From Capitulum mitella (lineage: Eukaryota > Arthropoda > Thecostraca > Pollicipedomorpha > Pollicipedidae): a stretch of DNA of 64,000 bases. Both the position numbers and the translations under genes were made by a program. Shown here piece by piece: positions 88 through 62,122 of the stretch. Every line of letters begins with the position of its first letter. The stretch's first letter is position 1. The notes under the pieces are model-generated. The model worked only from the letters and a program-made list of their open reading frames with translations. It did not search any database and was not told the origin of the DNA. The DNA lies in NCBI GenBank assembly GCA_030062745.1, contig CP099850.1:6076001-6140000 (forward strand), given 5' to 3'.

Positions 88-523
88 TCTCCGTCCCGCC
101 GGCGTCAGACGAAGCCGGAGCCATTCGTCTCGTCGGTGTCGACGTTTGACGCGTGCCGCCGTGAGCAGGCCTGTCGTTACCGGGGAATGCGCGTGCGGTG
201 CCAGAGGCGGCCCGTCGAGCCGCCGCCGGCCGGCACCGGCGGCCAGACGGACAGCCGCCGCCGGCGTCACCGCCGACGGCCGGCTATATTTTGTAGCCGC
301 CCTGTCCTACAAGCGCCGGTGGCCGGGGAACACGTGTATTAATAAGCCCCGGGGGCGTGTCCCGGACGGCGGCGGCCGGCGCTGATTGGCCGCCACCGCC
401 GCGGGGGCGTGCACCTGTGCACGGGTCCTTGTAATCGATCAGCGCCCGTGCACGAACACGCTCATCGATCAGCGGCGGAGCGACATGACGCCCCGAGCCG
501 CGGCCGCCCCGTGAGTCAGCCCG
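88..523 (+). repeat. Mirror block A, left copy (conserved noncoding)
   Basis: Matches 61,686-62,122 as reverse complement with almost the same length (436 against 437 bp) and few substitutions. It is GC-rich and holds two copies of ATCGATCAGCG (434-444 and 464-474), 30 bp apart, both kept in the partner; ATCGAT is a Cut/Onecut-type site. Homology stops abruptly on both sides. Several frames are open because the sequence is GC-rich and poor in stop codons, but none looks like a known protein. Probably a cis-regulatory element; this function is inferred. Confidence 0.85.
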
Positions 524-2119
524 CCGACCTGCTAATGACGGTAGAAATTCCGACGCCCGCAACCCGCGATTCGGCCCATCACCCCCTTCCCCTTGAAACG
601 CACCCGAGAGCGACGTCCCGGAACGCCTCCGACGACAGCACAACGTGCAACGACGCCGCGAAAACCAGTCCCACCGGGCTGTGGCGCCGTTCTGCCGCGG
701 GCAGCGCACTGTGGGACTGAGGAGATCGCGGCGGCCAGAGACGGTCCGACTAAACGCTTGGATTTCTCCAGGTCCCACGCTGACTTGCAGGCAGGCTGGC
801 GGCGTGCGGCAAACTCGCCCCTCTCTCGTCACCGCTAATCTGCCCTTTGTCCTTTCGAATGCATGAAGTAGGTGAGCTTGATCACGATTATTTTTGAAAA
901 ACGAAAAAAACCGCTGCTTTCAGCATGGACTCCTGACAGTGTGGTGTGGAAAGGAGTACAATGGGTCCGGAAAGACCTTATCTTGCAGGAAGGCAAGGTC
1001 AAAGCCAAGAATGTATGCAATGCGCCTCATATTTGTGATGGTAATCCGTAATGTTAATGAGTCGAAACACGCATGTACTTGCTTTGTTTTCGAACAAGTG
1101 ATCTGGGTTGCTGGAAACGTTCGAACGATTTTGCATAGCTCGGTTTTCAGGCGTGTTGGCCTTCAAATCATGAATTGTAAATGTGTGTTTGTTGGTCTGA
1201 GATTTGGCCGAAGACAGGGATGTCTATCGGCTGGCAACAATAGGCTGAGTTTCTATATGTACCCTTCAGCGGTGTCAGAGGAGTCGTCCGACAATGACAA
1301 CTCGGATCGAGGCCCAGAGGAAAGCTCCTAGCGCCGTATCACAGAGACCCAGAAAAGTCGGCAGCGCGGGTGAGGCTGCAGCATCCGCGACCGTTGCGTC
1401 AGCCAAAAATATCAGACATTTATCACCGTCCGGGCAAACATGTTCCCATCATCGCGCCATGCATCAGGACGAAGATTGCCTCCGAAACTGCATGTCGCGC
1501 GTCTGGGCGAGAGCGGCCCGCGCCAGACCAGGCCTAATTAAACAATGTTGCACCTACGCCGAGTAAATGGACCAGACACGGCCCGCCTCCAGCCGGCGAT
1601 TGATAACTCGTGTCCGGCGCCAAATTCGCCTCCGGTAGTCTCCAGGTGAAATACGAGGCCGCTAATGCGGTGGAGCGGCTCGTTGCCAGCGGCGCCCGGC
1701 TGTGGGACGGCCTGAACGGAACCGGGACTGAGACGGGACGGGACCGGGACAAACCGCGACCAGGAAGGGACGGGACCGGGACGGACCGGGGCGGCGCCGG
1801 GACGCGGCGCCGCCGACGCCAGAACTGCGACGGCGTTCGACGTGGCGGCCGTTCCCTCGCCAGGCAATCCATGCAGATCCTGTTCGTGGGCTCACCGGTC
1901 CGGGAGCGTTGTCCGAAAACGGCGTCCTCGTGACACTCACAGCGAGCCAATCCTACCATTCTATGCGAGAATAGGCCGCCTGCTCCAGCGATGAATTCAT
2001 TCACCAATCGAAGAACCCACACCGGTTACGTCACGTGACGTAACACTGCGAGTGCTGTTCGCCGGATGACTCATGATAGGTACGATGTGTGACCTCAGGT
2101 TAAAACCGGCTACCGCAGA
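524..2119. other. Non-conserved spacer between blocks A and B
   Basis: About 1.6 kb; the partner spacer in the right arm is only about 0.2 kb. No gene was recognised. It contains a GGGACGGGACC-type degenerate tandem stretch around 1,720-1,795 and a 20-bp palindrome at 2,025-2,044, listed separately. The middle part (850-1,290) is AT-richer. Confidence 0.6.
2025..2044. promoter_or_regulatory. Perfect 20-bp palindrome combining two CRE-like half-sites and an E-box
   Basis: GTTACGTCACGTGACGTAAC reads the same on both strands. It overlays TTACGTCA and TGACGTAA (CREB/ATF/PAR-bZIP type) on a central CACGTG E-box (bHLH-Zip type). It lies about 75 bp outside conserved block B and has no visible counterpart in the right arm. 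The sequence is certain; binding is inferred. Confidence 0.5.
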
Positions 2120-2300
2120 ACGCCCAAGACGTACAATAAATGACGTCACCGTCTGCCGCCCGTCCTGCTGAACTATCGCCGGCGTCAGCCGCAATTAGCC
2201 GGAGCCAGGACCGCACCATCATTGGCGATTATTCAGCTGACGCGGCCGCGACGGCCGCCAATTTGCCAGCTGTTGGGCCAGAGAGTGGGCCAATTTTTAC
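2120..2300 (+). repeat. Mirror block B, left copy
   Basis: Matches 61,304-61,488 in reverse complement. The inner 120 bp (from the CAATTAGCCGGAGCCAGG motif to GGGCCAATTTTTAC) appear virtually identical; the outer 60 bp differ at several sites. Carries a canonical TGACGTCA CRE at 2,141-2,148 and a CAATTAG homeodomain-type site. No coding signal. Confidence 0.85.
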
Positions 2301-2791
2301 GAGCGGTCACAGCTGTCTGCTTTGTCGGAGGCTCTAGTGCCCCTGTAACGAGTACATTTGTCCGGCTCGGGTGCCGTTTCGCCCGCCGTCGCTTTTTCCC
2401 CGTTGTTTTCTGGTGACGCTGCACGTGTCAGCTAATCGATCGCCACGCCGCTGTTCTCGCCTGCCGCCTCACTGGACCCAGAGTGCGGCCCACCACCTGT
2501 TCTCGCCTGCCGCCGCGCTGACCCCGCTGGCAGCTTCAGAACCATCTTCACCGACATTGCAGGATGACGTTTATAGCACTTTGTCTTTTCGGTGCCTGCG
2601 GAGGCGTCACCAGTCTCGGGATTCCTCGCCTCTCCTCCCGCGCCTGGAAGGCAGGCAGTAACCGAGTACCGCACCAAAATAGGACGAACCCCTCGTCTGC
2701 TCCCCAGCTGCCGCATCAAAGGATTATCCAGCCGCGGCTCCGACTGCCACTTCTGAGCGGCTTTGCAGGAGGTAGGGCGCGCAACATTTGT

Positions 2792-2930
2792 GCAAGATGA
2801 ATGCACTAGCCGCGTTTCCGTCGAGCTGACACGATTTTCGCATTTCCTCGACGAAGCGGCGCCGACGGGGCGGCTGGCAGCCGGCGGGCGCCATTTTTAA
2901 CGGGCTGTTATGTTGACGACACCAGGCTGC
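2792..2930 (+). repeat. Mirror block C, left copy (moderately diverged)
   Basis: Aligns with 60,811-60,946 reversed, from GCAAGATGAATGC at the outer end to ACGGGCTGTTATGTTGACGAC at the inner end. Identity is visibly lower than in A, D, J or K and small gaps are needed. Its place in the mirror order supports homology. Confidence 0.6.
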
Positions 2931-3547
2931 AGCTGGCCGTCGTTATCACCAGACGCGCCAGCGACGAGCGCTGCACTTACCTGGCTCGTTAATTTCACGA
3001 TCATGTCTACAGCGCGATGACAAGCGGACAGATCTGGCACAATATCGGCAGAGATGCTTTTGCTTGCATCTGCAGTTTCAGACTTAGTTTGCAGAACTAA
3101 GGTCGGTATGAAATAGAGTTTTTGTCAATCTGCTTGGCGAGACGGGAGCCAGCCACGATTTTGCACGCGGCCGCGGCCACAAAAGTCCTAGGCAGGCGAT
3201 TTTACTCTCAGATTATTGCATCGGTAAGGGTGTCGTTTTTTGGTAACCATGTGACCATCCCGGGTGACTGCAAATTCCAATAAATGCTTACATCACGCAT
3301 TGCATCTGTCGCGGGCGACACAATGGATGTCTGCTCCAAATGGCCATCGCTGACGTGGGCCATCCTAATCATGCAGGCCGAATCCACTAGTGTAGTTTGG
3401 GAAACGACAGAAGACATTACTCAGGCACAAGGTTAGAGCAAGAAACGCACGACAGTAAGCTTCAGATGCTTGTCAGATGCAGATGGCGTGTAGAGGGCTC
3501 AACACCTCGATGTTGCGGTTCAACGTTTCGACGTTCACGGCGCGGGG
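2931..3547. other. Non-conserved spacer between blocks C and D
   Basis: About 0.6 kb, unmatched in the right-arm counterpart (60,084-60,810). No gene, tandem repeat or transposon end recognised. Confidence 0.5.
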
Positions 3548-4212
3548 TGCGGCGTTTGTGACATCCGGCTCCGCCGGTGGTCGCCGCCGCCTCACGATGC
3601 GGCGGCGGCGCGCTGCCGCTATCTGCGCACCTGATCTGGGAGCCGCAGATGAAGAGGCCGCGGACCACACGGGCGCCGGCCGGCCCACAATGACCACCGA
3701 CCGCTGCCGGAGCGGGCCGCTCCAGTAAATAGCGCGCCGCTGAATGGAACACGCGCCCGACCCCGCCGACGCTCATAATTAACGCCGACAAAAGACGACG
3801 CCAGTTCTGCCTGGCCAAACGGGGGCGAGACCACCGCTGTGTTTGTGGGGGCGAGTCGGCGGCGCGTTTTTACACGTGTCGGCCGTTGTGAGCCGGCTCT
3901 GCGGACAATCGCGGCCTGACGTCGGCCGGTAGTAAGACGTGCGGTCGCCGTCGCTGCAGTGTTCAGTTCATAACATCAGAGGGCCGACCTCACCCACTGG
4001 CCGTCACAGGACCGACGCGGTCGGGCTATCTGTCCGACCATCCGGACAGCAGGCCCGACACTATGTTATACACCGGTTGACATTAATGTTACGGCCACTA
4101 AATAAATTCTTATCTCCATGAATTAGATGCAGGGACAGGCGGTGCCTGCGGAGACACGCTGCGTGCGCGGCGGGGCGCCAACATGGCTGCTGGTGCGCCA
4201 CAAATGTCGCCA
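3548..4212 (+). repeat. Mirror block D, left copy (near-identical, 665 bp)
   Basis: Matches 59,418-60,083 in reverse complement with essentially no indels. Over about 290 bp compared base by base (3,661-3,950) I see a single substitution, and 3,939-4,121 appears identical. Homology ends sharply at 4,212. Contains CTCATAATTAACG and CATGAATTAG homeodomain-type cores and a TGACGTC half-CRE. Open frames exist on both strands but resemble no protein family I know and seem to be by-products of base composition. Confidence 0.9.
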
Positions 4213-5799
4213 CTTGGTAGGGACGTCGTACGGCGAGGCATGCTTTCGTCGTAAACAAGTGAACATGGGTAGAAGAAACACTGTGTAGCGTGAGATTCGG
4301 GGCCGGTTTGAACATGCATAACGTAGTCTTCGTATGGACAGTAAAGCCGATTTGCGTCGAAAGGGACATACTTTGGAAGAAACGCCGTTCTACGTTTCTC
4401 GCCAGGCCATCCTCCTGGTCCTGCGGCCGAGCAGCGTGTAAGACGCACTGGTTGAAGTGGTCCGCGCATACCACGTTTGCTGCACCCGGGTCACGATCGG
4501 ATAGTGATCACTGCTGCAGGGCAGACGCCTTCGCTGTCACGAAAGAAATGTAGTCTCAGGGAAAGTGGTGTGTCAACGGTAACGTAAAAACCTGACGACG
4601 CGCGTACCAACACTTTTGCTAGGTATCAGATGTTTGGAGGAAATTCTATCAGGAGAGTCCATGAGCGGAATTTCGGACCTGCCAGACCATGGAATCGAGA
4701 GATGCTGAACCAATTACAGCGTCTGCTTCAAAACGTCCGACTGCCTCCGTCACGTGCTACTTGCGCTGGCCGCAGAGTGTCCACACAAGCGCCAATCAGT
4801 CTCTGTTGATACGAGAACAACAAAGAGTCATTTATCACCATCATCGAACGCATACCGACCGCCTGATTCACAGCACCAGCTCCACCGTGACCCGGCGTGC
4901 CGCGTCGTAACGCGGCATCGTCACGCGGCTCCGGCGTGACGCCGCCGCACGTGCCGGGCGCGGCCTGCCGGCGGCGGCGCCGGAGCGCTGGCCCAGAGAG
5001 GGGGTACAGCGCCACGTGGGAACAGCGGCAGCACACCTGTGCGGCCGAGGCTGAGCCGGAGCCCATTCAGCGCGAGCGGACGTGGACCACTGATCCACGA
5101 GGCGAGCAGCTGTTTCGCCTCATGGCGACCCAGTGGCACCTGACCCACAACAGGTGTAAGCGTGTAGCTATTGTTTGACGAACAATAGGGAATGCGAAGA
5201 GGTTTTTCCTTCTGACGTCCTTAGCGCATTGTGGTTTATGGCTTGTATTTCCCCAAAACTGTTTGCCGAATGTTTTTAATGAATGGTTTGGAGGGAAGCC
5301 TCCATACAGGTTTCTTCATAGGAACTTCATTATTCATTGATGGTACACAAATCACACAGAGGACGATCTTCTTCCAGCTTTGAGCCGATAGGCCAACTGT
5401 GTTGTTTTGGTAAAGGGACTAGAGTGTTAATGCTGAAAAACGGCCTGCAATCCTATTGATAATCTGCAGTGAATATAAGAAATGTCGTACACTGATTCTA
5501 GCCACTGAGTCGGCTTTTCACTTTTGTCCTTCACCCAGTCCTGCAAAAACAAGTATCGGACCGCCAAAGTGCAACCAACTCGGGGTGTTCGTCAGCCATC
5601 CAGTCTCGTGGACCAAGCAAAAGCAAACAAACACCCGGCGTCATTCTTACCAGTATTCTGCAGCCATTGTTGCCACAAATAGCACATTCAGCTGTCCGTC
5701 GGGACACCCCTTCCCGTCCGGTGGAGACCGTGCGCGGAGGCATCAGGCCCGCCCGCCCAGAACTGAACGTCTCCGGGCATTCCTTAAACCTCATGCTGA
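4213..5799. other. Non-conserved spacer between blocks D and E
   Basis: 1.6 kb with no match in the corresponding right interval (56,257-59,417). A GC-rich patch at 4,890-5,150 has open frames but no recognisable product or partner. Nothing else identified. Confidence 0.5.
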
Positions 5800-7275
5800 C
5801 AGTGGAACTGTTTTATTATGCCGTTATGCTTCTATCCGGAAAGCCTGTAGCCTTTTTCGGTGAAATGTTCGCGGCCGGGGTTGGCGGTCGAATTTCCACA
5901 GCGGTCTCGCTGCGTTTGATGGCTATTTATTGGTGAGAGGCTTGTCGGGCCGCTCCCCGGCTCCACGGCGGCCTTCCCAGCACCGGCCGCACGTGCCGGT
6001 CGACGTTTTTACTGCGCGCACCTCCCACGTATATCGGCATCCGACGAGCTGGCCGCTTCCGGCCGTTTTTACGGCGGCTGCGGCGCGGCCGGCAGCCCCT
6101 GCCGGGCTGACCCACGGCCCGTGACGTCATCGGGACAGAGGCTCGATCGGCGGCCGGCGGCTGACCCCCTATCGCCGGGTCGACGGGTCGCCGGGCGCCG
6201 CGTGTGCCGGACTCGGAGGCCCCGCCGGGCTGGGAATTTGATTGGCCGCGGCCGCAGCGGGAGGTGACGCTGCAGTTTACGATCGCTGCCACGGCGAGCG
6301 ACGCCCGATCTCGGCCGATCTAATGCCGTTTGACGGCTCCATCTGGTCGGCTGCCGCCGGTTGCCACATCAACGTCCGAACGGTGCAGCGGCCTGCCCGT
6401 CCACCGGACAGACGGCCGACGCCCCACGCTATTTCGGGGTACGCGGGGATCACGTGACAGGCAGAGGCCCGACCTTGCGCCAGAGCTGTACGCAAAAACG
6501 CACATCTTGGCCGGCGTTTTCATCCGTTTTTCTGGTGATCACCGTACGTCTGACTCAACCGTTGGACGTAAACCATAGACATGGGGCAGACCTTCCGTTC
6601 AGATGTGTGGTTCCAGAACAGCACTGACTCCTGTGGTCCCCGGACCACTCCTGACTCCGGTGGTTCCCGGACCAGTTCTGACTTCGATGGTCCCCTGGAC
6701 CAGACCTAACCCCTGCGGTGCCCTGAACGAGTTCTGTCTCCAACGGTCCCCGACCATTCTTGACTGATGGTCCCCGGGTTAGTCTTGACTGAAGGTTCCC
6801 CGGACCAGTCGTGACTCCGGAGGTCCCCTGGGCCAGTTCTGACCTCAGTGGTCTCGCAGACCACTAGTAACTCCTGTGATCCCCAGGACCAGCCGTGACT
6901 CGGGCGGCGATCGGTCCGTCTACGGTCGGTGCTGTCCGGTGGTGGCGGCAGGGACAGTGTGCGGTGCGGAGGCCGCCGCTGCCGCCCGTACAACTGGAGC
7001 GTCCATCCGTGAGTGGGACCTCCCGCAGGCCCAGACAGAGGCCCGCTGTCAGGCACCGCCGCCGTCTGACATGGACACAATGTGCGCCAATGACACGGGC
7101 ATTTTTTAGCGGCCGCCCGGCCGGCCAAAGGCTTGCGGTGCGCGCCGGAGAGGCGTCGCGGCCTGACGCTCCCTATGACCGATTGGAGACGGCTGCCACC
7201 GGCGTCGTCCAGTGACGTCACTTTTTGTCGGCGCCGGCTGCCACCCTTTTGTTCCGGCTCGGCAGGCAGGGAGAG
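5800..7275 (+). repeat. Mirror block E, left copy
   Basis: Matches 54,850-56,256 reversed. The outer part (5,850-6,600) and inner part (6,895-7,275) are highly similar; between them sits a degenerate minisatellite (6,615-6,895) whose copy number and sequence differ between arms. Includes the GTGACGTCAC CRE at 7,211-7,220. No coding signal. Confidence 0.9.
6615..6895 (+). repeat. Degenerate minisatellite of about 30 bp inside block E
   Basis: Repeated cores of the form GGTCCCCGGACCAGTCNTGACT, spaced roughly 27-33 bp, about nine to ten units with heavy divergence. The same array, reverse-complemented and cleaner, lies at 55,235-55,455, so the array predates the inverted duplication or has been exchanged since. 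Confidence 0.75.
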
Positions 7276-7814
7276 ACGCCGCGTGTGCACTTTGTCTAAC
7301 GGTGTCATGTGTGGGGGCAATGTTGCGCTAATGGTATGATTTATTTGACGTGATACCAGAAATGCACGAGATAATTGATGGCCACTGTTGAATTTTCTTT
7401 CCTTCTCCATTGGTATTCGTTTAACTCGTCGTAGTTCCGGGCCTCGTGAGATTCTCATGTGCGTCGTGGAGCTTCATTACGTTACAAAGCGGGTTCAGTT
7501 GTTTACTCTTTTCGGTCGAGGGCGGGCTACTTAATGCGTCGAATTTTTGCTCTGCTTTGCAGTAACTGATCTGATCTGGCTATGGAAGCTGATAACTCCA
7601 TACTCTCTAGCTTACTTAGCTTCCTAGGATTATGATTTCTGAAAATACATATGTTATGTTAAGTTACTGCAATGTCTTGCATTGCGCTGTGTACGTGTAT
7701 TTTCAAAGATGAAACCCTGCGGACCCAGTCGTGACGGGGACATCAACTCACGTCAAACGATGAGACTTGCGCCCTCCTGTTTGTGAAACCTGGGGTCGCC
7801 GCTCATTCCAAGCA
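7276..7814. other. Non-conserved spacer between blocks E and F
   Basis: About 0.54 kb against 0.44 kb on the right (54,409-54,849), with no similarity detected by eye. No feature recognised. Confidence 0.5.
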
Positions 7815-8325
7815 ACGCCGTAACCCATCGGGATGTCGGAGTTGTTCACAGTCGCCGGCGTTTCATCACCGTCCGTCCCATCTCCGTGTGTATGCAGTTT
7901 GTTTACATACCCCACATACCTGGGCGCAGAGACAAAAAGTCGCCACATAGTTCTCAACACGAGCGGCCACTGTTCCCACGACAAATAAATACAGCGGCTA
8001 ATGATAAGAATCAATTACCTGGCGGGAGGGTGGGCCGCTCGCTGCAGAGGGCGGCCCCCCGCCGCGACCCCACATTGTGCGCCCCTCCCCCCCCATTGGT
8101 GGCCGGTCGGCCGGGATGTGGCCGGGCCGCTGTTTGTTTTCGGCGGCGACAGCTATTTCCGACGACAGCCGAAGGCGGCGTCAGAGAGTTACGGCGTCGG
8201 CCGTCGGCGCAGCGTCAGCTCCGCCCCGGCACTGTCCGACCCCATTTGTACGGCCGACCATGAGCCGCTGGGAAACACAGAGCCAGACGGCCGTCCGACG
8301 GATGTAAAAACCGGAGGAAGTGGGA
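7815..8325 (+). repeat. Mirror block F, left copy
   Basis: Matches 53,903-54,408 reversed, with high identity except for small indels in the C-rich tract near 8,085. Contains the AT-rich core TAATGATAAGAATCAATTA (about 7,999-8,017), which holds PBX/Hox-like ATCAATTA and GATA-like TGATAAG sequences. No coding signal. Confidence 0.9.
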
Positions 8326-12314: not shown

Positions 12315-12470
12315 CTGACCTGACCGCGCCAGCGGACGACGGGTCGGCCTGAGGCAGATGACGGGCCGGCCGGTGCCGGGCAGCGATTGAGCGTGTCCGG
12401 CCGAAAGGCGCCGGAAATTGCACTTGCTCTGACGGCCGGCTGGCGCCGGCGAGCGAGCCAGATTTCCGCC
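12315..12470 (+). repeat. Mirror block I, left copy
   Basis: Matches 34,062-34,215 reversed, about 85-90% identical, including GATTGAGCGTGTCCGGCCG and GGCGCCGGAAATTGC. Only about 95 bp separate it from block J in both arms. Confidence 0.8.
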
Positions 12471-12565
12471 ATTTAGTCGGAGCCCATCTCATTGCCGTGC
12501 CGTCCCCGCCTCGCACCCATTGCTCAAAGCCGTCCCGCTCGTGTATTGAATTTCACGGTTCCATT

Positions 12566-13306
12566 GAACGGAGCGTCATAAATGTGTCACATTTGCCCGG
12601 TAATTTTACTTAAGGTGCAGGAACGTATGATTAGGCGCCGACAAAACGCCGCTCTAATCACTCTTTCCGTTCGGTAAAAAACAAACACGCCCCGCCCCCA
12701 TTGGCCACTCATCTCGGCCGTCGAGCCGGTACCCGACAATTACTCTCGGCACACTGTCCAATAAATCTTGCGTGAAATTCGCCTGTAATAACACGCTGTT
12801 CGGCGACGAATTGATTAGAATGGGCCGGTTTTCCGTGGGCGGCGGGGGGCGGTGCGCCCCAGACCCGCCGCCGCCGCCGCCGCCGCCGCCGCCCCCGCCC
12901 ACCACCGGCCGGCATAATTGACCGTCATCAGCTCCACTGTGTCGACAGTCCCCCTCGGTAACGTCTGTGTTCGGGGAAGCGGGTACAGACCGGACCGGTA
13001 GCTCGTCGATGACAGGGCGCCCTCTCCGGCCACTGACCGGTCAGGCGGTCTCCCACCGGACAGCCGTCTCCGTCGAGACGAGCGGCCGTCTCCCTGGAGA
13101 CCGGCTGTCTCCGGTCTCCGGGGAGCCGTCCGTCGCCATGGTAATGAGTGGCATTATCATTAGCGGCCGGCCGGCTGATCCATCAATAGTGTAAATGAGA
13201 CGGCGGCGGCCGGCCCGCCGGAACCGTCGCCGACTGACCGCTCTGTGGGAAAATCGGCCCCGGCCGCCCGGTGGGGCCGTTACACGGACCCATCGAGACC
13301 TGATCG
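12566..13306 (+). repeat. Mirror block J, left copy (near-identical, 741 bp)
   Basis: Matches 33,226-33,965 reversed (740 bp). The stretch 12,580-12,850 appears almost identical. The main length difference is a (GCC)n tract (12,866-12,900), shorter and interrupted on the right. Homeodomain-type cores include GAATTGATTAGAA, ATTATCATTAGC and CTAATCACT. The only substantial spacer-free neighbour is block I. No coding signal. Confidence 0.92.
12866..12900 (+). repeat. (GCC)n microsatellite inside block J
   Basis: About ten GCC units followed by a CCCCCGCC interruption. The mirror position (about 33,640-33,665) has a shorter, interrupted GGC run, as expected for slippage after duplication. Confidence 0.85.
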
Positions 13307-17568: not shown

Positions 17569-20280
17569 CCGGCGCGAAAACTGCCAAATAAAACATACAA
17601 CTTAACCGATAACAAATACTTTCTGCAGCGTATGTCGTTCTCGTAAGACTTATGTGTCTATGCAAGAGTGGTATGCCCTTGGGTATGTCTCTCAGTTTAT
17701 ATCCACCATGAGGAGTAAGCAGTTAAATTGGCTGGGGCGTTATCTGGTGCTTGTGACGCTTTCCTCAGTTTCGGCTTATATAGCCTTCTGACGTGAATTC
17801 GGCCAAGACCGGATGCTGAAAACACATCGTTCCAGTCGCAGATCCAGGTACTAATATGTTGTGTCTTCCTTGTAATTCTTCATCTTTCAGTTTATCCTGA
17901 GACTCAAAGTCGGAAAAACATTGCTCCGGCTCAAATAAAAAAAAATGACGCCACCTGTAAGTGGCAGGATGAGTGGAACCCGAACGGAAAAGTTCACGTT
18001 ATGATTCCAATTGCTTACTGACTTTGCTTGTTATATATCCAATTGCTTATCCAACTGCGCATAGAGATGTGATTAGCTGCCACTCTGAATGCTCTGAATA
18101 CCGTGACACGGGTTTAAAAATTGCGTCACCCTGGCGCGACCATTCGTCGAATGTTATTGAAAATGAAAAGGCAAATACCCCTTACATGATTGCGTCAAAT
18201 TTCTTGGCGGGGCATCAGGCTGAAAGGCAGTTGCAGAAATCGCCGACAGTCGGTGGCTCGGTGGCCTTCCAGCCTTTAAAATGTGCTTCCTTTGGGAAAA
18301 ACGAGCGACACGAGTGCTAGGATCGACTTGCGCTGCAAAAACGGTACGACGGACTGCCACTGCCACCAGCGGCCTGCAAAATCTGGCAAATGCATAAGAC
18401 AGGGTGTGGTAAAAATCGTCCTGGTCGAAGTGGACAACAGAGCAACGGAAACGTTAAAAGCGTCTCACAGATTATTGCATTATAGCACATGCACTGCCTG
18501 CATGCGGCGTCGAAATTCCTCTAGCCAGCAATATGCGTTTCATTGCAAAGCAAAGACCAACGTTAGAAATGCTTGAGTTCAATTTCATGCATAGAAAACT
18601 AATTGAAAATGCCACCAAACGAAATATTTACGTGAAGAAATCTGTTTTATTCTATTCCCAATAAGTCCGAATATTCGATATGAAATAAAAGAAGACAAAG
18701 TGTCTGAAAAACTTCCCATACCGTTACGCTCAAGCAAACCTAATTTTCGTGCCAAAAATCCATTGAGAAGAAAGTACCAGCTGCAATGCATCAGCCGATG
18801 TATGAGCTGAGACACAACATAACCGCGACATGTCAGGGACCGCTAGTGAGTCGGTAGCGATCATCAAATCGGACGGGTTCGAGCTGTTGGCAGCTCTCAT
18901 TTTAATTTATTTCGAGGGTCTCGTGGGAAATCAGCATCACGCTTCACCAGTGGATTTACTAGACTGAGTTCTCAAAAAGTCTCAAGGAGATTATTATGTC
19001 GAGAAGACAGTGTGCAAATATAATTCATTTTCTCTATCGTGCAGGCAGTGTCCATCATCAGTCGATGTCTCCAGATCATGGTGTTTACCATAAATGATCC
19101 ATCAGTGCAATCTAAAAATAGGCAAAAATGGAAAGCAGACTGTTCACTGGCAGACGACCCGGCTAATCACCCTGTACTTACAGCCTCAATAGCTTGTAAC
19201 AATGGCCAAACCGACGGAAGGCTCTTGGCCTTCGGCCAGCATCGCACAATGTCCGGAGACCAGACACCGACCAAACTGATTATCGGCGCGATCAACAATG
19301 TCATCCCGACGAACATGTGTTCCATCGCAATTCTGACAGCTCATAACAGATCGCCTCGGCGCTGCTGCTCGGCTGTCGGGACCCGGAGCCGCCCAGTTCT
19401 TTACCCTGCGTGGGCGCCGCGGGCTTCGGCAGCCCCAGCCCGCGCCTCGGCTGCCCGGCCGCCGCCGCCGCCGCGGCCGGGACGGGCGCGACGGCGGCGC
19501 CTCGCCTCGTTAGCGGCCGCCGCCGTTGTGCCGCGGCGCCGTCGATGCCGACGGGTACACGGGTCCGGCGTCGACTCGGACGGGCGTGAGTGGCGGCCGG
19601 GCGGCGGCGCGGGCCGCGGCAGCCACGCGCGCCGCCAATCACGCCGTCCGCGGCCGTGCGGCACCGCGGACGGCGCGCCGCCGCCGCCGCCGCCCGGTTT
19701 ATTTTAGCGCCGCGGCGGCGTATCCAGCGCGAGCCGTCTGGTCTTTGTTCTGGTTCGGATTGTTTTTGTTCGGTGTCGCTTTTTGGCGGCGCTGGTCGCT
19801 GATCGGTCGGTGACAGCTCCCAGAGGCCGGCCCTAGTGGCGCGCCCGCGACGTTAACATCCTGCCGGGATGCGCCGCACAGCTGCACGGCCACAGCCAGG
19901 TGCAGCTGGACAGCCACGCTGGAATGCAAAACAACTTTGCACTAATTATAACGAAGACATGTCAAGTAAGGTCCCTTTGGAGAGTGTTCGGGGCTCTTAT
20001 ACAAGTTTACGAGGACAATTCCAGCAGTGCACGGATATTGTTCCATCTTTTTGTTCGTTCGTTCGTTCCGTTCATCGACATCCTTCCACATCTTTTCATT
20101 TGCTCACATGTCTCTTCTTGTTTTTCTCCCAAAATCTCTGTTCCCAGTCCGCCGTTGTGAGAACGGACATCAGGACGCAACGGAAACGACCGTACAATAT
20201 GTGACCAACTACTGTCTTATTGCTGGAGTTCACGGCGCACCGCTGCTGCAGCACGTGCTGCAGCCGCACACACACCCTCG
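17569..20280. other. Left-arm spacer after block J, second part
   Basis: AT-rich until 19,200, then a strongly GC-rich island at 19,370-19,720 with GCC/GGC runs. The island has open frames in all phases, as expected from composition, and no mirror partner was found. A possible tRNA-like sequence lies at 18,838-18,893. Confidence 0.45.
18838..18893 (+). other. tRNA-like internal promoter (possible SINE head or tRNA relic)
   Basis: TAGTGAGTCGGTAGCG resembles an A box and GGTTCGAGCTG a B box, about 30-35 bp apart as in tRNA genes and tRNA-derived SINEs. I cannot build a paired acceptor stem, so this is not called a functional tRNA. Confidence 0.25.
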
Positions 20281-20380
20281 ACGGCGCGAACGTCTCCACG
20301 TGCCGTCAGCTGTTTATGCCCGGCGTCGCCTCGTGGGACGCTCGCTTAAGCCGTCTCCGTCTGGCTAATTACTGGCTCTG

Positions 20381-20408
20381 ATTAATCACCGCTCGGACGG
20401 TGATTAAT
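20381..20408 (+). promoter_or_regulatory. Hairpin K1: inverted ATTAATCACCG motifs
   Basis: An 11-bp perfect inverted repeat, ATTAATCACCG and CGGTGATTAAT, with a 6-base loop (CTCGGA). The mirror copy is 27,581-27,608. As DNA it offers paired TAATCA homeodomain-type sites in opposite orientation; as RNA it would form a stable stem. Only the symmetry is certain. Confidence 0.65.
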
Positions 20409-20412
20409 TAAC

Positions 20413-20431
20413 GGACCGTTTGATACGGTCC
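20413..20431 (+). promoter_or_regulatory. Hairpin K2: GGACCGT inverted repeat
   Basis: A 7-bp perfect stem (GGACCGT and ACGGTCC) with a TTGAT loop, starting 5 bp after hairpin K1. The mirror copy is 27,558-27,576. The two stems in tandem are unchanged between arms. Confidence 0.5.
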
Positions 20432-20705
20432 TAATGTCTGAGCGCCATCTGATCAGCTGGTCTGAGCGGAGTGGCCTCTTCCCGTTCTCCCTCCCGTCTC
20501 TGAACCCGGCCCCTATCGCCACCAAGAGATTTCCTTCAACGCGAGCGTCAGGCTTCCGTAAACGTAAGGTTACAGTTGTTTAGTTATTGGCTTGTCGGTA
20601 TTCTTCCTGCAGAGCACCACGAACGTGCAAGTTTGCAAATGGAACTGCGGTTATGAGGTTTCCGACAATTTCCAGACGCGGATGCACGTTGTTGAGCGCG
20701 CGTTT

Positions 20706-20835
20706 GCTGTCGGTGGCTGTTTACCCAACGCTATTGGCGAGATCTCGGTAATCCAAACAAGCGACTTGTCGACAAACCTTTTTCTGGCGTCGACTGTGTT
20801 TTATCGGCGCTGGCTTCGGAGTGCTGCCATATCTC
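20706..20835 (+). repeat. Mirror block L, left copy (innermost, about 75% identical)
   Basis: Aligns with 27,145-27,275 reversed through TCGGTAATCCAAACAAGCGACTTGTCGACAA-type sequence (positions about 20,745-20,777), then TTTTATCGG and a GATGCCAT-like end. Clearly more diverged than K, only about 180 bp away in both arms. Confidence 0.7.
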
Positions 20836-22973: not shown

Positions 22974-22998
22974 CAGGGGCGCAGTCAGGATTTTCTCG
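22974..22998 (+). repeat. Dispersed-repeat terminus (GGGGCGCAGCCAGGATTTT family)
   Basis: CAGGGGCGCAGTCAGGATTTTC. Related ends occur at about 21,426-21,445, at 37,062-37,080 (a short MITE with both ends) and, on the minus strand, at 40,280-40,305. Where both ends exist the sequence forms a terminal inverted repeat, so this is probably a fragment of the same MITE family. Confidence 0.45.
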
Positions 22999-23074
22999 CG
23001 GGAACGGAGATCAGTGTGAAGGAGCCCCGGCCCCCGACCCCCCCCCCCCTTCTTGTTTGTGCCGGTGATCCGGA

Positions 23075-23267
23075 CTATCTTAACATAAAGTGCAACACCA
23101 TGGGGGCCCTGTGTACAAAGGTGGCCAAAACGTCCTGCAAAGACGCGATACCGGCATTGAACCTGTCAAGCATGGCGTCCCGCAGATCAGAGAGGGTATC
23201 ACGTTCTGCAAAATAATGGTCAGGTCACCAGGGCCCGGCGAACTCATCACTCACCATCGCTCTCCAT
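23075..23267 (-). CDS. Possible two-exon short coding fragment, function unknown
   Basis: On the minus strand an ATG at 23,267 starts MESD, then a strong donor (GATG|GTGAGT, exon end 23,255), a 49-bp intron, and a good acceptor (TTATTTTGCAG, exon start 23,205). The phases match and the frame runs to a TAG at 23,075-23,077, giving about 47 residues (RDTLSDLRDAMLDRF, then LQDVLATFVHRAP). The second exon looks amphipathic and protein-like rather than random. It may be the tail of a longer gene or transposon, since the frame stays open about 60 bases upstream of the ATG. I do not recognise the family. Confidence 0.25.
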
Positions 23268-33965: not shown

Positions 33966-34061
33966 ACAAATGCCAGCAAGTGCAACGTACGGCGGACGAA
34001 CGCTGCAGCGCGGACAAAGCGGGGCCGCTGCGGCGCCGCGCGTCGCCGGCCGAATCGCAGA

Positions 34062-40130: not shown

Positions 40131-40149
40131 CTGTGCCAACTTCAGCCAA

Positions 40150-52092: not shown

Positions 52093-53902
52093 ATAGCATT
52101 AGAACTGCCCGAAACACAAACTCCTCGAAAAACTACTACGGCATCCAGATAAGCACGAGTTTGTTTTCAAGAATTTGATCCGAATGTCTGACGCGAGGGC
52201 CTTGGCATCCGAATCCGTCCGGAGACGACCTTGGTGCGCTATCCCCACCACCTGGCCCGGTCACCAGAGCGGGGCCAGATAAAGGTTAACGGGGCACCAG
52301 CCGTCCTTCAAGAGTGGCTATGAGGTCTTTTGGCCCTTATGTTTGGGGCAAATGGCGCTGGCAGCTGAAAACTAAGTCATGTTACCTACCGCTCATTGGT
52401 TTGGTAATGACCAAAGCATCCTAGAATAAAGTCGATGTAACAGTGTTATTCGGTGTGATACGCAGTTTGGTCGACCACCGTTTAAATTAACTTTCCCATA
52501 TCCCTCACTCACCAAACGTACACCCCGAAAGGCATAACTACCCTGCAGGTGAGGCACAAATGCCCGGGCGATGTGCAGTTCTGAAGTCGTTTAAAGGTTT
52601 CACACGATCGCGCTTCACTCATTTGAGCAACATACCGAGGTAAATTCCTTCTACATGTCTCGTTGTTTTTTGCGCAGCTTTGAATGTTCCCACGCCATCG
52701 AGTCTCAGTAGGGATCTTTATTTATTGCAGAACAAGTGGGAAAACACGAGAAAATGGGACGCTATTACAGTTGACCTCTGACTTATAGATAGTTATGACA
52801 GCTTTCAGAACAAAGACACATCCGGATATAATGACTTCGTTACTAAAATATCGACCCAATCCTTGCCTACCAACGGCGGTCAAATTCAAGAGGTTACAGG
52901 TTCAACGTTCAAGTCTTTCGAAAAATCCTGCTATGGTTCAGCAAAACTGCACGTATTCGCTTCATTTGAAGCGAACAGGTGGAATTCTGCTCATTTTCCC
53001 GATATTTGCACTTCATTTCATTGTTCAAATGCAACGGTTCCATTCAAAAACATCGTGAACTCCGTTTCCTCAGTTAGTTTCAAACCTGGTCGCAAGTTTC
53101 CTAATGTGCGACCCTGGCATACGATTTCGCCCAGTAGCACCGTAACCGTCAGCTGATCGCTGGCAGGAATGCCTTACGCCTATAACTGTGTTGCGTGATT
53201 GCCAGATGCGCCACTCGCAAAATTAGCCGGCTATGTAGGCAAAACTTTTCATTTATTTTTAAACCCCGTCAACGGGAGACACGTATGAGGAAGTTTCAAA
53301 CGTTTCTGAGGTATTTTTCAAAATTCATGACAGCTTTTCGGGCGTTTTGCTATTGAGGACGCTTGCTAAAGTCATGTATATTCCCTTGCATTTCAAAGGG
53401 TCGCAACATGTGACCCAGACGACCCTCTGGCCACTGCACTGGACTTGGAGCTCTGGAGCTCACAGGTTAAGTGCTTCCCATGCGTTTAGAGGATTCATTC
53501 AAAATGTACCTCAAATCTTCTTGACTTGGAACCTTCCTGTGCTAATCTTTAAAAAGATATTCAGCCTATTATCAGATGTCAACGTCACTGTTAAGATGAA
53601 TTTACGTGTTATAGTGCTTGATTTTTTATTGTTTCACACACTGCTTTCCGAGGTCAATTTTGAAAACTAAAAACAGTTTACTGCCATGCCCTTCATTCTA
53701 CAACTTCATGGTTCGAAATATGCATCAACAGCTGCGTGATCGGTAACAATGGCGGTTTGCCTGAAATGGCATGGCGTTTCCGTTCCCATGTTCTGCGCAG
53801 ATCGCGTTTCACTTTTGGCTACGATTCGTACCTTCGTGAGAATCGCCGCGTTTTTCCAGATCTCCAGAACTCATGCATGCTCAGGATCTGTCGCCTGTCC
53901 CC

Positions 53903-54408
53903 ACTCCCCACAGTTTTTACATCCGTCGGACGGCCGTCTGGCTCTGTGTTTCCCAGCGGCTCATGGTCGGCCGTACAAATGGGGTCGGACAGTGCCGGGG
54001 CGGAGCTGACGCTGCGCCGGCGGTCGACGCCGTAACTCTCTGACGCCGCCTTCGGCTGTCGTCGGAAATAGCTGTCGCCGCCGAAAACAAACAGCAGCCC
54101 GGCCACATCCCGGCCGACCGGCCGCCACTGGGGGGGAGGGGCGCACAATGTGGGGCCGCGACGGGGGGCCGCCCTCTGCAGCGAGCGGCCCACCCTCCTG
54201 CCAGGTAATTGATTCTTATCATTAGCCGCTGTATTTATTTGTCGTGGGAACAGTGGCCGCTCGTGTTGAGAACTATGTGGCGACTTTTTGTCTCTGCGCC
54301 CAGGTATGTGGGGTATGTAAACAAACTGCATACACACGGAGATGGGACGGACGGTGATGAAACGCCGGCGACTGTGAACAACTACGGCATCTCGATGGGT
54401 TACGGCTC
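53903..54408 (-). repeat. Mirror block F, right copy
   Basis: Inverted partner of 7,815-8,325; homology stops sharply at about 53,903 after the shared GTTTTTACATCCGTCGGACG segment, and near 54,408. Confidence 0.9.
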
Positions 54409-54849
54409 GTTACTCGGAGAATGAGATGAGCCTCCAGGTCAGGCGGGTGGTACGGTAGGGGACGAAGCATAGTCCCAGTTGATAGCTTAAAACCAATGTC
54501 TTGTGCTGTGGTGACGCTGACGATATACGTCAGATACGACGACTGCGGATGTGTTAAAATCTTGCGACGCACAAAGGACCGAATAATGTGACGCATCATT
54601 GCAAGAACTTTTTTAAAGTTCGCAGTGCCAGGGCAATGATTAGGTAATTTCGTCCCATGAAATACGATAGAGCTAATGCCAAAATTACCCAAAGCTGGTA
54701 GGGGCAACGCCAGTTCGGTACGGTCGCTGTCTTACCCGCCTCATGGGATGCTACACAAATGCTGTCATGATTTGTTCTAAACAATCTTCGTTTCTTCATC
54801 AATAGAGGCGGTGGACGGAAGCAGTCCACCTCGACAGAAGAGCGTCGCT
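54409..54849. other. Spacer between blocks F and E, right arm
   Basis: 0.44 kb unrelated to its left counterpart (7,276-7,814). No feature recognised. Confidence 0.45.
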
Positions 54850-56256
54850 CACCTGCCTGCGGAGCCGGAACAAAAGGGTGGCAGCCGGCGCCGACAAAAA
54901 GTGACGTCACTGGACGACGCCGGTGGCAGCCGTCTCCAATCGGTCATAGGGAGCGTCAGGCCGCGACGCCTCTCCGGCGCGCACCGCAAGCCTTTGGCCG
55001 GCCGGGCGGCCGCTAAAAAATGCCCGTGTCATTGGCGCACATTGTGTCCATGTCAGACGGCGGCGGTGCCTGACAGCGGGCCTCTGTCTGGGCCGGCGGG
55101 AGGTCCCACTCACGGATGGACGCTCCAGTTGTACGGGCGGCAGCGGCGGCCTCCGCACCGCACACTGTCCCTGCCGCCGCCACCGGACAGCACCGACCGT
55201 AGACGGACCGACCGCCGCCCGAGTCACGGCTGGTCCTGGGACCTGGAGACCACAGGAGTTAGCAATGGTCCGGGGGGACCACCGAAGTCAGGACTGGTCC
55301 GGGGGGACCACCGGAGTCAGGGCTGGTCCGGGGGACCACCGGGGCCAGGACTGGTCCGAGGGACCACCGGGGCCAGGACTGGTCCGAGGGAATCGCCGGT
55401 GTCACGGCTGGTCCGGGAACCACATGAGTCAGGACTGGTCTAGGACCAGACCCCGAACTGAGGTCTGTCCCATGTCTATGGTTTACGTCCAGCGGCTGAG
55501 TCAGACTTACAGTGATCACCAGAAAAACAGAGGATAAAGCCGGCCAAGATGTGCGTTTTTGCGCACAGCTCTGGCGCAAGGTCGGGCCTCTGCCTGTCAC
55601 GTGATCCCCGCGTACCCCGAAATAGCCTGGGGCGTCGGCCGTCTGTCCGGTGGACGGGCAGGCCGCTGCGCCGTTCGGACGTTGATGTGGCAACCGGCGG
55701 CAGCCGACCAGATGGAGCCGTCAAACGGCATTAGATCGGCCGAGATCGGGCGTCGTTCGCCGTGGCAGCGATCGTAAACTGCAGCGTCACCTCCCGCTGC
55801 GGCCGCGGCCAATCAAATTCCCAGCCCGGCGGGGCCTCCGAGTCCGGCACACGCGGCGCCCGGCGACCCGTCGACCCGGCGATAGGGGGTCAGCCGCCTG
55901 CCGCCGATCGAGCCTCTGTCCCGGTGACGTCACGGGCCGTGGGTCAGCCCGGCAGGGGCGGCCGGCCGCGCCGCAGCCGCCGTAAAAACAGCCGGAAGCG
56001 GCCAGCTCGTCGGATGCCGATATACGTGGGAGGTGTGCGCAGTAAAAACGTCGACCGGCACGTGTGGCCGGTGCTGGGAAGGCCGCCGTGGAGCCGGGGA
56101 GCGGCTCGACAAGCCTCTCACCAATAAATAGCCATCAAACGCAGCGAGACCGCTGTGGAATTCGACCGCCACCCCAGGCCGCGAATATTTCACCGAAAAA
56201 GGATACACGCTTGTCCGACATTAGCATAACGGCAGAATAAAACAAACCCCACTGTC
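54850..56256 (-). repeat. Mirror block E, right copy
   Basis: Inverted partner of 5,800-7,275. The flanking 380 and 750 bp are near-identical; the internal minisatellite (55,235-55,455) is about 60 bp shorter than on the left, which accounts for the length difference. Confidence 0.9.
55235..55455 (-). repeat. Minisatellite of about 30 bp inside block E, right copy
   Basis: Seven to eight units of the type GACTGGTCCGGGGGACCACC. Units are more uniform than in the left array, suggesting more recent homogenisation. Confidence 0.8.
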
Positions 56257-56920
56257 ACCACGCGGGGTGAGGAATGCGTCGTGGAGGATTCTCATGCACT
56301 GGCCGAGCAGACAAAAAAACTGAACGGAAGGCGGCGGGGAAAACTGGCAAGCACCCCGGACTTTGAAACTCATGGCCTGACCCCACGTGTCTGTTTGTTT
56401 GCTTTTTGATCGAGAGTCCATCCATATGGTGCACGTGTGAGTGGGAATCCCACATTCTCATTGTCAGTCTCACATTCGTGGGAATCACTGGAGAAACGAT
56501 GCGTTTTCACCACGACCTTGGTCGACTTTTCATAAACAGACTAAGCTGGTCTGAAAGGTGTCGCTGAAAACGTTTTCAGAAATCATTTTGTAAAAAAATG
56601 CCTACAATTTTCAGAAAATGAAACAGTTAAGCCTATATTCTGTAGTCATCCGCCGATATGACGTCAAACGGGCCTGCACAGCCCAATAAACGCTAACGAT
56701 CATTGCTCTGGGTCTGCTCATGACGTCACGCAACAGCTGTAAATAGGGCACGGCCGAACGGAACAAACGGGAAAACGGGCAAACCGTGAGAAGTCGTTTA
56801 AAATATCTGTAAGCGCAAAATTTTGATAGGTAATGCCTATCGCCGATTGACTTGTAAAACCACAGACGACAGATTGGGTGTGTCGATTGAGATGACACGT
56901 GTTAAGCTAATACAGTTCTC
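56257..56920. other. Spacer between block E and TTAA element copy 2
   Basis: No recognised feature. Contains scattered TGACGTCA-like sequences at 56,659 and 56,721. Confidence 0.4.
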
Positions 56921-59104: not shown

Positions 59105-59417
59105 ATGAAACCTGTTTTACTCACATATACCTTGAAAACCTCATGCACCAGACCTTGTGAGACATGTGTAACGCAGGCGAAGAACGCCACCACAGGGCCA
59201 ACTACAACACACCGAAATCCCAGCAGACAGTGTCACATGCTCCGATAATCCATTCCAAACACTCGCCTCATCCAGGACGAAAATGCTTCACCTCTCATGA
59301 GTGCGTCAAAGCTCGAAGCTTTCACTCTTCGCCACCATGGGACCTGAGCACGTACCTCTCGGTCCCCCACAGTCACCACTCCGAAATGGCTTGCCCGTGC
59401 GCTCGCGACAGCAGGCG

Positions 59418-60083
59418 GCGACATTCGTGGCGCACCAGCAGCCATGTTGGCGCCCCGCCGCGCACGCAGCGTGTCTCCGCAGGCACCGCCTGTCCCTGCA
59501 TCTAATTCATGGAGATAAGAATTTATTTAGTGGCCGTAACATTAATGTCAACCGGTGTATAACATAGTGTCGGGCCTGCTGTCCGGATGGTCGGACAGAT
59601 AGCCCGACCGCGTCGGTCCTGTGACGGCCAGTGGGTGAGGTCGGCCCTCTGATGTTATGAACTGAACACTGCAGCGACGGCGACCGCACGTCTTACTACC
59701 GGCCGACGTCAGGCCGCGATTGTCCGCAGAGCCGGCTCACAACGGCCGACACGTGTAAAAACGCGCCGCCGACTCGCCCCCACAAACACAGCGGTGGTCT
59801 CGCCCCCGTTTGGCCAGGCAGAACTGGCGTCGTCTTTTGTCGGCGTTAATTATGAGCGTCGGCGGGGTCGGGCGCGTGTTCCATTCAGCGGCGCGCTATT
59901 TACTGGAGCGGCCCGCTCCGGCAGCGGTCGGTGGCCATTGTGGGCCGGCCGGCGCCCGTGTGGTCCGCGGCCTCTTCATCTGCGGCTCCCAGATCAGGTG
60001 CGCAGATAGCGGCAGCGCGCCGCCGCCGCATCACGAGGCGGCGGCGACCACCGGCGGAGCCGTGCGTCACAAACGCCGCATTC
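59418..60083 (-). repeat. Mirror block D, right copy
   Basis: Inverted partner of 3,548-4,212, indel-free or nearly so, with identity in the high 90s. Homology begins abruptly at 59,418 and ends at GTCACAAACGCCGCA (60,083). Confidence 0.9.
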
Positions 60084-60810
60084 TGCACCGTGGATTGCGA
60101 ATAAACACGGTAGGAGAGCCCTCTTGTGTCACTCCAAAACAGTAATCCGACATATAATTACTGTAAGTCATCGTGCGGACCGACTGAAACTATTCAACTG
60201 GTTTCAGCAGTGTTGTTTGTCATGAGCTTTTTTCAATCCCATAGCAACGGGCTTGTCCTCCGGGCGGTTGGTATGCCAATAGATCTGATGTTATGTGAGA
60301 CATTAAAAGAAGATAATAATGCACTCCGATATCCTGATACACTTGGGACCATGAAAGCATGTCTTAATTCGGTTATCTCATTAATGCGGCTCTCCCGTTT
60401 CTGAGCACGTATGGCTGCGCTGCCATGCTTCAGCCATATGTTCGCTGAAATAATTTTTACCTGACACGTACCAGGCACTGTGGGCAGACCACAGTTTGCG
60501 TTCGACCTTGAATGTGCGAGGCGGTCATGCAGTCTTGCAGCGGTGACCCGTATCTGTTTTCGGAATTTCTGCCAATACTCTGTCGTACAAATGGACATAA
60601 CTGTTCTTGTGGAACCGGCTCTATGACGGTGTACGCCAGCTCGTTCTCACCGATCCCTAGGCCTTTTGCAGTGTTTTGCATAAGCCCCGCAGGCGCGAAC
60701 CCGCGCCTTGAGTGTGACAACGCTGTAAACCGATGACGCTGTCACACCAGACGCGACTAATGCTGCGACAACCGCGCTGGACCTTAAGGGACAGGCGGCG
60801 AATAAAATTT
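60084..60810. other. Spacer between blocks D and C, right arm
   Basis: 0.73 kb without recognised features; similar in length but not in sequence to its left counterpart. Confidence 0.45.
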
Positions 60811-60946
60811 GCATGCTAAGTCGCCAACATAACGGCCCGTCAAGGCGCCGCGTCCAGTTGGCGGCGCTCTAAAGTTGGCGCGCCGCCGGCTCAAATGGGA
60901 AAGTCGTGTAGAGCGGCCGGGACACGGCGCTGGCATTCATCTTGCG
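60811..60946 (-). repeat. Mirror block C, right copy
   Basis: Inverted partner of 2,792-2,930; GTCGCCAACATAACGGCCCGT is the best-matching segment (60,820-60,840). Confidence 0.6.
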
Positions 60947-61303
60947 CCGGCCGGCGGCGGCCGGGTGCGCTGCAGGCCTGCTCGGCTTGCAGCCAGCGCG
61001 GCGGCCGGTTAGCGGACCGATTCACTGGTGCGTTGTTCGCACCTCGCCGGCCATCGCCTGGCCGCGGGTAACACTCGCCGGGACTCGGCTGGGGCCAGGT
61101 CCGCCCAGCCTGGCCAGCGCGGACCCGGTGGCCGGCGGGACCACGGGGCGATGAAATAAAACAGAAAGTTTCGCAAAACTTCGGTAAAATACCAACAGAA
61201 GGATTCGTTTTGCATTAGTGGCGTACAGGCGTGTTGTCTTTTTTTTTGTTTTTTGCAGTGTAGATGAGATTTGGATGCTTTCCATCCGACGTACCCAGCT
61301 CCG
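60947..61303. other. Spacer between blocks C and B, right arm
   Basis: GC-rich at 60,940-61,140, AT-rich with a T tract at 61,241-61,255. No match in the left arm and no gene. Confidence 0.45.
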
Positions 61304-61488
61304 GTAAAAATTGGCCCACTCTCTGGCCCAACAGCTGGCAAATTGGCGGCCGTCGCGGCCGCGTCAGCTGAATAATCGCCAATGATGGTGCGGTCCTGGC
61401 TCCGGCTAATTGCAGCTGACGCCGGTGATAGCTCAGCAGGACGGCCGGCAAGCGGTGACGTCATTCACTGTACGTCTTTGGCGCTCTG
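61304..61488 (-). repeat. Mirror block B, right copy
   Basis: Inverted partner of 2,120-2,300. The TGACGTCA CRE and the CAATTAGCC motif are conserved (reversed). Confidence 0.85.
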
Positions 61489-61685
61489 CATCAACTTAAT
61501 TTACCTGGCATGAGCTCAACGGTAAGGATTCCTCATACCGACTGGCGCCAGTTTTTTTCGAGTGCGGTCATCTTTTCCGTAGTGCACACGAGTGGAAACG
61601 GCTTGGATGACGGTATTGCCGGCAAGGTAAGCAGGCCGGGTAGAACAGATCCCGTCCGTCGTTAGCTGGCCAGCTGCGCCGTCCA

Positions 61686-62122
61686 GCGGGCTGACTCACG
61701 GGGCGGCCGCGGCTCGGGGCGTCATGTCGCTCCGCCGCTGATCGATGAGCGTGTTCGTGCACGGGCGCTGATCGATTACAAGGCCCCGTGCACAGGTGCA
61801 CGCCCCCGCGGCGGTGGCGGCCAATCAGCGCCGGCCGCCGCCGTCCGGGACACGCCCCCGGGGCTTATTAATACACGTGTTCCCCGGCCACCGGCGCTTG
61901 TAGGACAGGGCGGCTACAAAATATAGCCGGCCGTCGGCGGTGACGCCGGCGGCGGCTGTCCGTCTGGCCGCCGGTGCCGGCCGGCGGCGGCTCGACGGGC
62001 CGCCTCTGGCACCGCACGCGCATTCCCCGTTAACGACAGGCCTGCTCGCGGCGGCACGCGTCAAACGTCGACACCGACGAGACGAATGGCTCCGGCTTCG
62101 TCTGACGCCGGCGGGACGGAGA
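61686..62122 (-). repeat. Mirror block A, right copy (outermost)
   Basis: Inverted partner of 88-523. The spacer to block B is only about 0.2 kb here. Both CGCTGATCGAT motifs are conserved. Confidence 0.88.

Follow-up and report, generated by a model that had tools for sequence, protein, structure and literature searches.

How does a stretch of DNA come to mirror itself at scattered islands, with mostly unrelated sequence between them? The question is raised by 64,000 nucleotides (the window) from the barnacle Capitulum mitella (assembly GCA_030062745.1, contig CP099850.1; C12:6076001-6140000). The original prediction, made from the window's letters, described an interrupted palindrome of about 62 kb with twelve mirrored noncoding blocks, and proposed the inverted duplication of a regulatory landscape whose important parts were preserved while everything else was replaced. 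Analysis of the window together with 100 kb to its left and 160 kb to its right (324 kb without a single N) places it between two divergently oriented homeodomain genes, L and R, which we take to be Iroquois (Irx) genes from their recognizable residues. We consider it probable that an Irx gene and its regulatory landscape were duplicated in inverted orientation long ago, and that the islands have been kept alike since then by patchy gene conversion between the arms.

Coordinates are given in window numbering, carried on below 1 to the left and above 64,000 to the right. The right limit of the region, C12:6300000, lies 50 kb beyond the outermost mirrored pair. Whole-genome searches covered 477 Mb in 16 contigs. 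A single genome was compared, and the evidence on noncoding islands comes from within it.

A nest of inverted islands

Aligned with its own reverse complement, the window yields a run of inverted matches along the antidiagonal whose outer ends lie at 87 and 62123, which bears out the palindrome as described. The count of blocks does not hold: the window contains eight nested pairs, all in one chain. With the flanks included, the nest spans 245 kb and comprises 36 inverted pairs about a central spacer of 6.3 kb, running from -71713..-71291/173307..173731 at the outside to 20705..20830/27147..27274 at the centre. The chain was selected as the best nested one; it had 38 links, of which the two outermost (78% and 68% identity, far off the diagonal) were dropped as distant repeat matches. 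Pair identities range from 75.5 to 99.3%, and 24 of the 36 reach at least 90%. The arms measure about 96 and 150 kb, and the aligned columns total 13.9 kb. The arms lack the near-identity over their full length that marks palindromes of mammalian sex chromosomes.

Chance can be set aside, as the original prediction had maintained. With a strong inverted match defined by at least 88% identity over at least 150 bp, the region holds 27; by comparison, inverted matches of that length were absent from all three shuffled versions of the 324-kb sequence. Twenty-four of the 27 lie inside the chain, where 24 of the 36 pairs pass both thresholds. The other three also fall at mirror places: two are tandem-repeat registers within one block, and the third is a 283-bp stretch beside the homeodomain block. 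Strong direct matches more than 1 kb apart number two in the whole region, one of which joins the R homeodomain exon to a third Irx gene.

Pairs were assigned to classes by hand: 3 are coding blocks (exon 1, the homeodomain exon and exon 3), 25 lie upstream, the first intron holds 6, and another 2 are downstream of exon 3. Thus, 33 of the 36 pairs are noncoding, and they adjoin predicted developmental transcription factor genes. Identity is at least 90% in 22 of these 33. Mismatches in the noncoding pairs are spread without codon phase (pooled chi-square p = 0.79, with 3 of the 33 below 0.05), whereas those of the three exon blocks concentrate in one phase. For 17 of the 33, a full-length open frame is missing in both arms. 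In the window, bacterial-style calling listed 24 open reading frames of at least 150 amino acids, and the eight that were scanned gave no Pfam family; Rfam (at gathering scores) and tRNA scans gave no matches.

Differences are unevenly distributed within the blocks. Blocks of at least 150 bp number 29, with the three coding blocks and several tandem-repeat blocks among them. The longest exact run exceeds the expectation for scattered differences in 18 of the 29 (p <= 0.05). Compared with the core, the edges are less identical in 20, more identical in 7 and the same in 2. The GC fraction is 0.650 in blocks, 0.496 in gaps and 0.534 outside.

Copy number was checked for the 15 of 36 pairs (14 noncoding pairs and coding exon 1) whose genome searches recovered the query itself. 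The 14 noncoding pairs found only their mirror partner, adjacent tandem copies and short matches of up to about 115 bp; exon 1 also matched other Irx genes. The noncoding islands searched are therefore no collection of mobile repeats, in agreement with the original prediction. A transposon of the long terminal repeat type, considered as a source of the mirror, is ruled out by the 36-deep nesting together with the two-copy state of the tested blocks.

Within the window, the outermost pair is 87..524 (+) / 61686..62123 (-), 99.3% identical over 438 ungapped bp and without a comparable third copy in the genome. It is followed inward by 2115..2300 (+) / 61304..61489 (-), at 94.6% over 186 bp, and by 3536..4211 (+) / 59417..60092 (-), present in two genome copies and 98.4% identical over 676 bp, including one exact run of 508 bp. 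The next pair, 5777..7279 (+) / 54842..56277 (-), encloses a tandem-repeat array and also lacks a comparable third copy; its overall identity is 88.7% over 1508 columns, but mostly 90-100% apart from the repeat and the first 100 bp. Then come 7788..8324 (+) / 53900..54439 (-), at 95.0% over 541 columns, and 12318..13306 (+) / 33227..34211 (-), at 91.2% over 998 columns with an exact run of 283 bp. The genome search with 12318-13306 listed only the mirror partner and missed the query itself, which leaves room for a third copy. The innermost strong pair is 20280..20525 (+) / 27464..27709 (-), at 96.7% over 246 bp; inside it lies the weaker pair 20705..20830 (+) / 27147..27274 (-), at 76.7% over 129 columns, which borders the central spacer (20831..27146, without N).

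Given their position, uniqueness and persistence, the noncoding islands would most probably serve the Irx pair as enhancers and promoter elements. The inverted duplication of a regulatory landscape, as originally proposed, is supported: the anatomy of the locus backs the duplication, and the regulatory role is inferred from these three properties of the blocks.

The Irx pair and the case for gene conversion

A codon-periodicity scan located homeodomain frames at -66513..-66091 (minus), 167547..168008 (plus) and about 218 kb (plus). Homeobox_KN (PF05920) matches R (E 4.6e-18) and a third gene, T (E 5.1e-18), indicating homeodomains of the TALE class (KN-type); the L homeodomain is 98% identical to that of R. 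A protein search of the whole genome returned ten homeodomain matches, five of them strong (E <= 7.3e-33): L (homeodomain exon at C12:6009586-6009828, minus), R (C12:6243622-6243864, plus), T (C12:6294188-6294373, plus), M (C12:6429545-6429778, plus) and O, on a different contig (C10:22888118, minus). Four of the five are thus clustered within 420 kb (C12:6009586-6429778). As a side observation, O and M have the closest homeodomain silent sites among the five genes (silent-site divergence, dS, of 0.14). O may derive from the barnacle genome duplication, which the consulted portion of one account dates to more than 247 million years ago (PMC11331182).

The exon structures of L and R are predicted, from translation and similarity. 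Similarity places exon 1 at C12:6021452-6021755 in L and C12:6222448-6222751 in R; exon 1 is matched also in O, and weakly at sites fitting T and M. Exon 3 lies at -68681..-67817 in L and 168240..169110 in R, and is matched in L, R and O. The L and R homeodomain exons are 234 kb apart on opposite strands, near the outer ends of the nest. Because the two genes diverge, their first exons enclose 201 kb that lies upstream of L and R alike; the window falls wholly inside this interval. A pair of oppositely oriented paralogues within 200 kb, which the original prediction had proposed to look for, is therefore present: L (minus strand) and R (plus strand).

The three coding blocks tell different stories at silent sites. 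In exon 1, L and R differ at 1 of 68 silent sites (dS 0.015), and in exon 3 at 11 of 215 (dS 0.05). In the homeodomain exon, the least alike of the three, they differ at 15.5 of 55 (dS 0.35; 0.58 over a longer stretch). Fourfold sites give the same contrast: 7 differences in 226 for exons 1 and 3 versus 10 in 28 for the homeodomain core (Fisher p = 6e-7). On either side of this core lie stretches with near-identity between L and R. Adjacent exons within a single pair of genes thus appear both recent and old, for which the simplest cause is patchy gene conversion between old copies.

Comparison with O sharpens the point. In exon 1, 66% of aligned residues agree between O and the L and R pair (dS 0.35-0.37); in exon 3, 54-55% agree (dS 0.44-0.45). 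Between a third and almost half of the residues in these two exons thus separate O from L and R, and the near-identity of L and R therefore calls for more than constraint. In the homeodomain exon, the distances are comparable (dS of 0.58 for L-R, 0.71 for R-O and 0.75 for L-O), and the acidic tail of R resembles that of O, not that of L. The noncoding islands behave as exons 1 and 3 do, being alike between the arms and without a match at O: the 14 noncoding pairs searched gave no match at the Irx gene on C10, where exon 1 matches at 78%, and in 8.6 kb of sequence from that locus the three exons alone match the region. This favours conversion for the islands too.

Intron 2 provides the complementary evidence. 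Its length is 303 bp in L (a transposon set aside) and 310 bp in R, and the two show no similarity (z = -0.3); as a control, one simulated copy with 50% of its bases changed still gave z = 5.9. The exon that follows is 97.7% identical between L and R. Near-identical silent sites in two exons, next to an intron without similarity, point to gene conversion. The gaps between pairs present a similar picture: of 35 gaps, 22 were tested (the others being too long, too short or absent), of which 3 reach z 4 in a global or local test and a fourth reaches z 3.9. Many gaps hold unrelated DNA in both arms, not just in one.

These observations fit the following sequence of events. The anatomy of the locus shows that an ancestral Irx gene was duplicated with its upstream region in inverted orientation, leaving L and R divergent with mirrored upstream regions. 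The duplication is old, as most tested intron and intergenic DNA has diverged beyond recognition, partly via transposon insertions. Exons 1 and 3 and the 33 noncoding stretches would stay alike through ectopic conversion from arm to arm; the silent sites of two exons back such conversion, and for the noncoding islands we infer it. Selection on coding and cis-regulatory function probably holds the islands similar enough for conversion to continue, whereas unconstrained DNA would have lost homology and fallen out of the exchange. Shared islands would keep the regulation of L and R in step. The earlier expectation, important parts preserved and the rest replaced, thus stands in part: the islands were kept, but selection alone is probably not the cause, given what the silent sites and intron 2 say about gene conversion. 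A more far-reaching proposal is that some 22 to 33 upstream, intronic and downstream cis-regulatory islands, spread across 245 kb, are homogenized island by island, such that L and R share co-evolving switches while the intervening DNA turns over. We regard the chances of this as evenly balanced.

Several points weigh against gene conversion as the agent, or against its reach. Eleven of the 33 noncoding pairs fall below 90% identity. The lower identity at block edges is favoured by local alignment itself, and the pooled differences are 7.9% at edges against 6.5% in cores. GC-rich blocks would fit GC-biased conversion, but third positions of the C10 gene are equally rich, and many GC-rich stretches of the region are unshared between the arms. 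One strong direct match (-35513..-35364/91110..91259; 150 bp, 97.3%) runs counter to the mirror pattern. Some genome searches missed the query's own place, so they give no proof of uniqueness, and the C10 gene may have lost its landscape. By dS, the R homeodomain exon is slightly nearer L than O. A tree of homeodomain cores neither supports nor rejects L and R as sisters (support 42/0); it lacks resolution, so the contrast between exons is one of distances, not of branching orders. The homeodomain core, instead of having escaped conversion, may have been overwritten from another Irx gene, which is also a conversion event. For the noncoding islands, constraint and conversion are not directly separable within one genome.

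Constraint might then suffice: the inverted duplication would be old, and its islands and exons would persist under purifying selection, the islands as ultraconserved cis-regulatory elements, with no conversion. Irx loci are among those with clusters of extremely conserved noncoding elements. Such clusters are known around developmental genes, as set out in the consulted part of PMC5585340. The islands here are likewise noncoding, surround developmental genes and often have an exact core. Nevertheless, this account would leave silent sites of exons 1 and 3 near-identical between L and R while residues differ strongly from the C10 gene; the 14 noncoding pairs searched leave no trace at that gene (though its landscape could have been lost); and among the coding blocks the lowest likeness falls to the homeodomain exon, where the strongest constraint would be expected. 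We therefore judge constraint without conversion to be unlikely.

Two further accounts make the arms young or spurious. The duplication might be recent (2-5% divergence), with DNA between islands replaced later by insertions and deletions. In its favour, exons 1 and 3 and many strong islands share a similar level of identity, and two gaps hold transposons, one of about 1.04 kb within L intron 2 and another of some 270 bp at 160217-160485. But intron 2, with its transposon set aside, is equal in length in the two genes (303 and 310 bp) yet without similarity; many gaps are filled with unrelated DNA in each arm; and silent divergence is much higher in the homeodomain exon. A recent origin is accordingly very improbable. 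Assemblies of highly heterozygous animals can retain both haplotypes, and two divergent haplotypes of a single locus might have been joined head to head; this we find scarcely credible. The 324 kb contain no N, and the spacer has no near-identical fold-back border, the pairs next to it being 96.7% and 76.7% identical. Moreover, between alleles one would expect some similarity to survive in a 300-bp intron, and silent divergence not to jump 7- to 11-fold from one exon to its neighbour. Patchy conversion between old inverted copies remains the account that we prefer.

Transposons and other features of the arms

Transposon insertions account for only part of the divergence of the gaps. The one in intron 2 of L (-67598 to -66562; 1037 bp) belongs to a young, high-copy element, 96-98% identical to the 39 copies scored of 13455 candidates. 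An older one of about 270 bp (76-79%) lies at 160217-160485, and the two islands that flank it adjoin in L. Simple relocation of gap DNA was considered and rejected: the gaps within 1-8400 have only short matches elsewhere in the genome, and other gaps hold old or young transposons. DNA just outside the palindrome matched only repeats at 66-86%, in a genome search that missed the query's own place.

Further features lie mostly in the right arm. A segment at 39147-43019, the one stretch of the window that resembles a transposon with terminal repeats, has inverted ends of about 500 bp (39147-39638/42506-43019, 78.4%; a pair outside the nest) around a frame of 536 amino acids (40421-42028, minus) without a Pfam family. 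An old interspersed repeat at 43894-44908 has many copies on other contigs, mostly at 67-75%, and a retroelement fragment at 127342-128031 encodes reverse transcriptase / RNase H (PF17919, E 5.6e-20). Upstream of R, a long open frame at 102524-103420 matches Frag1/DRAM/Sfk1 (PF10277, E 1.9e-8); no partner frame was found in the left arm. Arrays of the AT dinucleotide occur at 29932-29983, 30542-30592 and 52022-52065.

Mirrored landscapes and known inverted pairs

Paralogous enhancers are expected to drift apart; here, 22 of 33 noncoding islands stay at least 90% alike between copies that appear old. If conversion is the cause, concerted evolution can extend to regulatory DNA spread over hundreds of kilobases, with consequences for the redundancy of duplicate developmental genes and for the upkeep of their enhancers. 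A single genome, with the locus folded onto itself, is enough to pick out candidate Irx regulatory elements for testing. Indeed, if the landscape does evolve in concert, the chromosome would hold its own map of regulatory elements, legible by self-alignment of a single genome.

Clustering of Irx genes is itself familiar. The consulted portion of PMC2674049 describes Irx genes as clustered in most bilaterians, with ara/caup and mirror ancestral to crustaceans and insects, and describes the linkage of Iroquois genes to the ankyrin gene CG10632 (sowah). The C. mitella genes are clustered like the insect and crustacean complex (ara, caup, mirror). Unlike the complexes described there, two members stand head to head with mirrored islands between and around them. 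The literature consulted, represented by parts of the papers cited here, contained no published mirrored landscape of dozens of noncoding islands between divergent Irx copies.

Concerted evolution of inverted gene pairs is known from several systems. The Drosophila genes Amy-p and Amy-d form a palindromic pair and, in the sections of PMC3924832 available to us, concerted evolution in the melanogaster group is confined to coding sequence. One D. kikkawai amylase pair is homogeneous in noncoding sequence as well, attributed to conversion or to a new duplication, and Hsp70 genes are likewise called palindromic (both from the same sections of PMC3924832). The Irx pair resembles the amylase pair as a set of inverted paralogues; it differs from the melanogaster-group pattern, as described there, in sharing 33 noncoding islands over 245 kb around a developmental regulator.

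Mammalian X and Y palindromes are large inverted repeats with arms more than 99% identical, kept so by conversion (PMC8981503 and PMC3723533, as excerpted). The barnacle locus is likewise a large inverted repeat for which we propose conversion from arm to arm. In contrast to the palindromes in those excerpts, only islands are alike here, and there is no sound sign of GC bias.

The Dlx pair of the annelid Capitella teleta is linked, inverted and arranged tail to tail, with conversion in and beside the homeobox in tracts of 150 and 31 bp (PMC3199776, as excerpted). Both cases appear to combine linked, inverted homeobox paralogues with patchy gene conversion. The Irx pair, however, is head to head, its homeodomain exon is the least homogenized, and its landscape is mirrored, a feature not reported for the Dlx pair in the excerpted account. 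Inverted gene pairs evolving in concert are known, then, and the apparently new element is a mirrored series of noncoding islands between divergent developmental genes.

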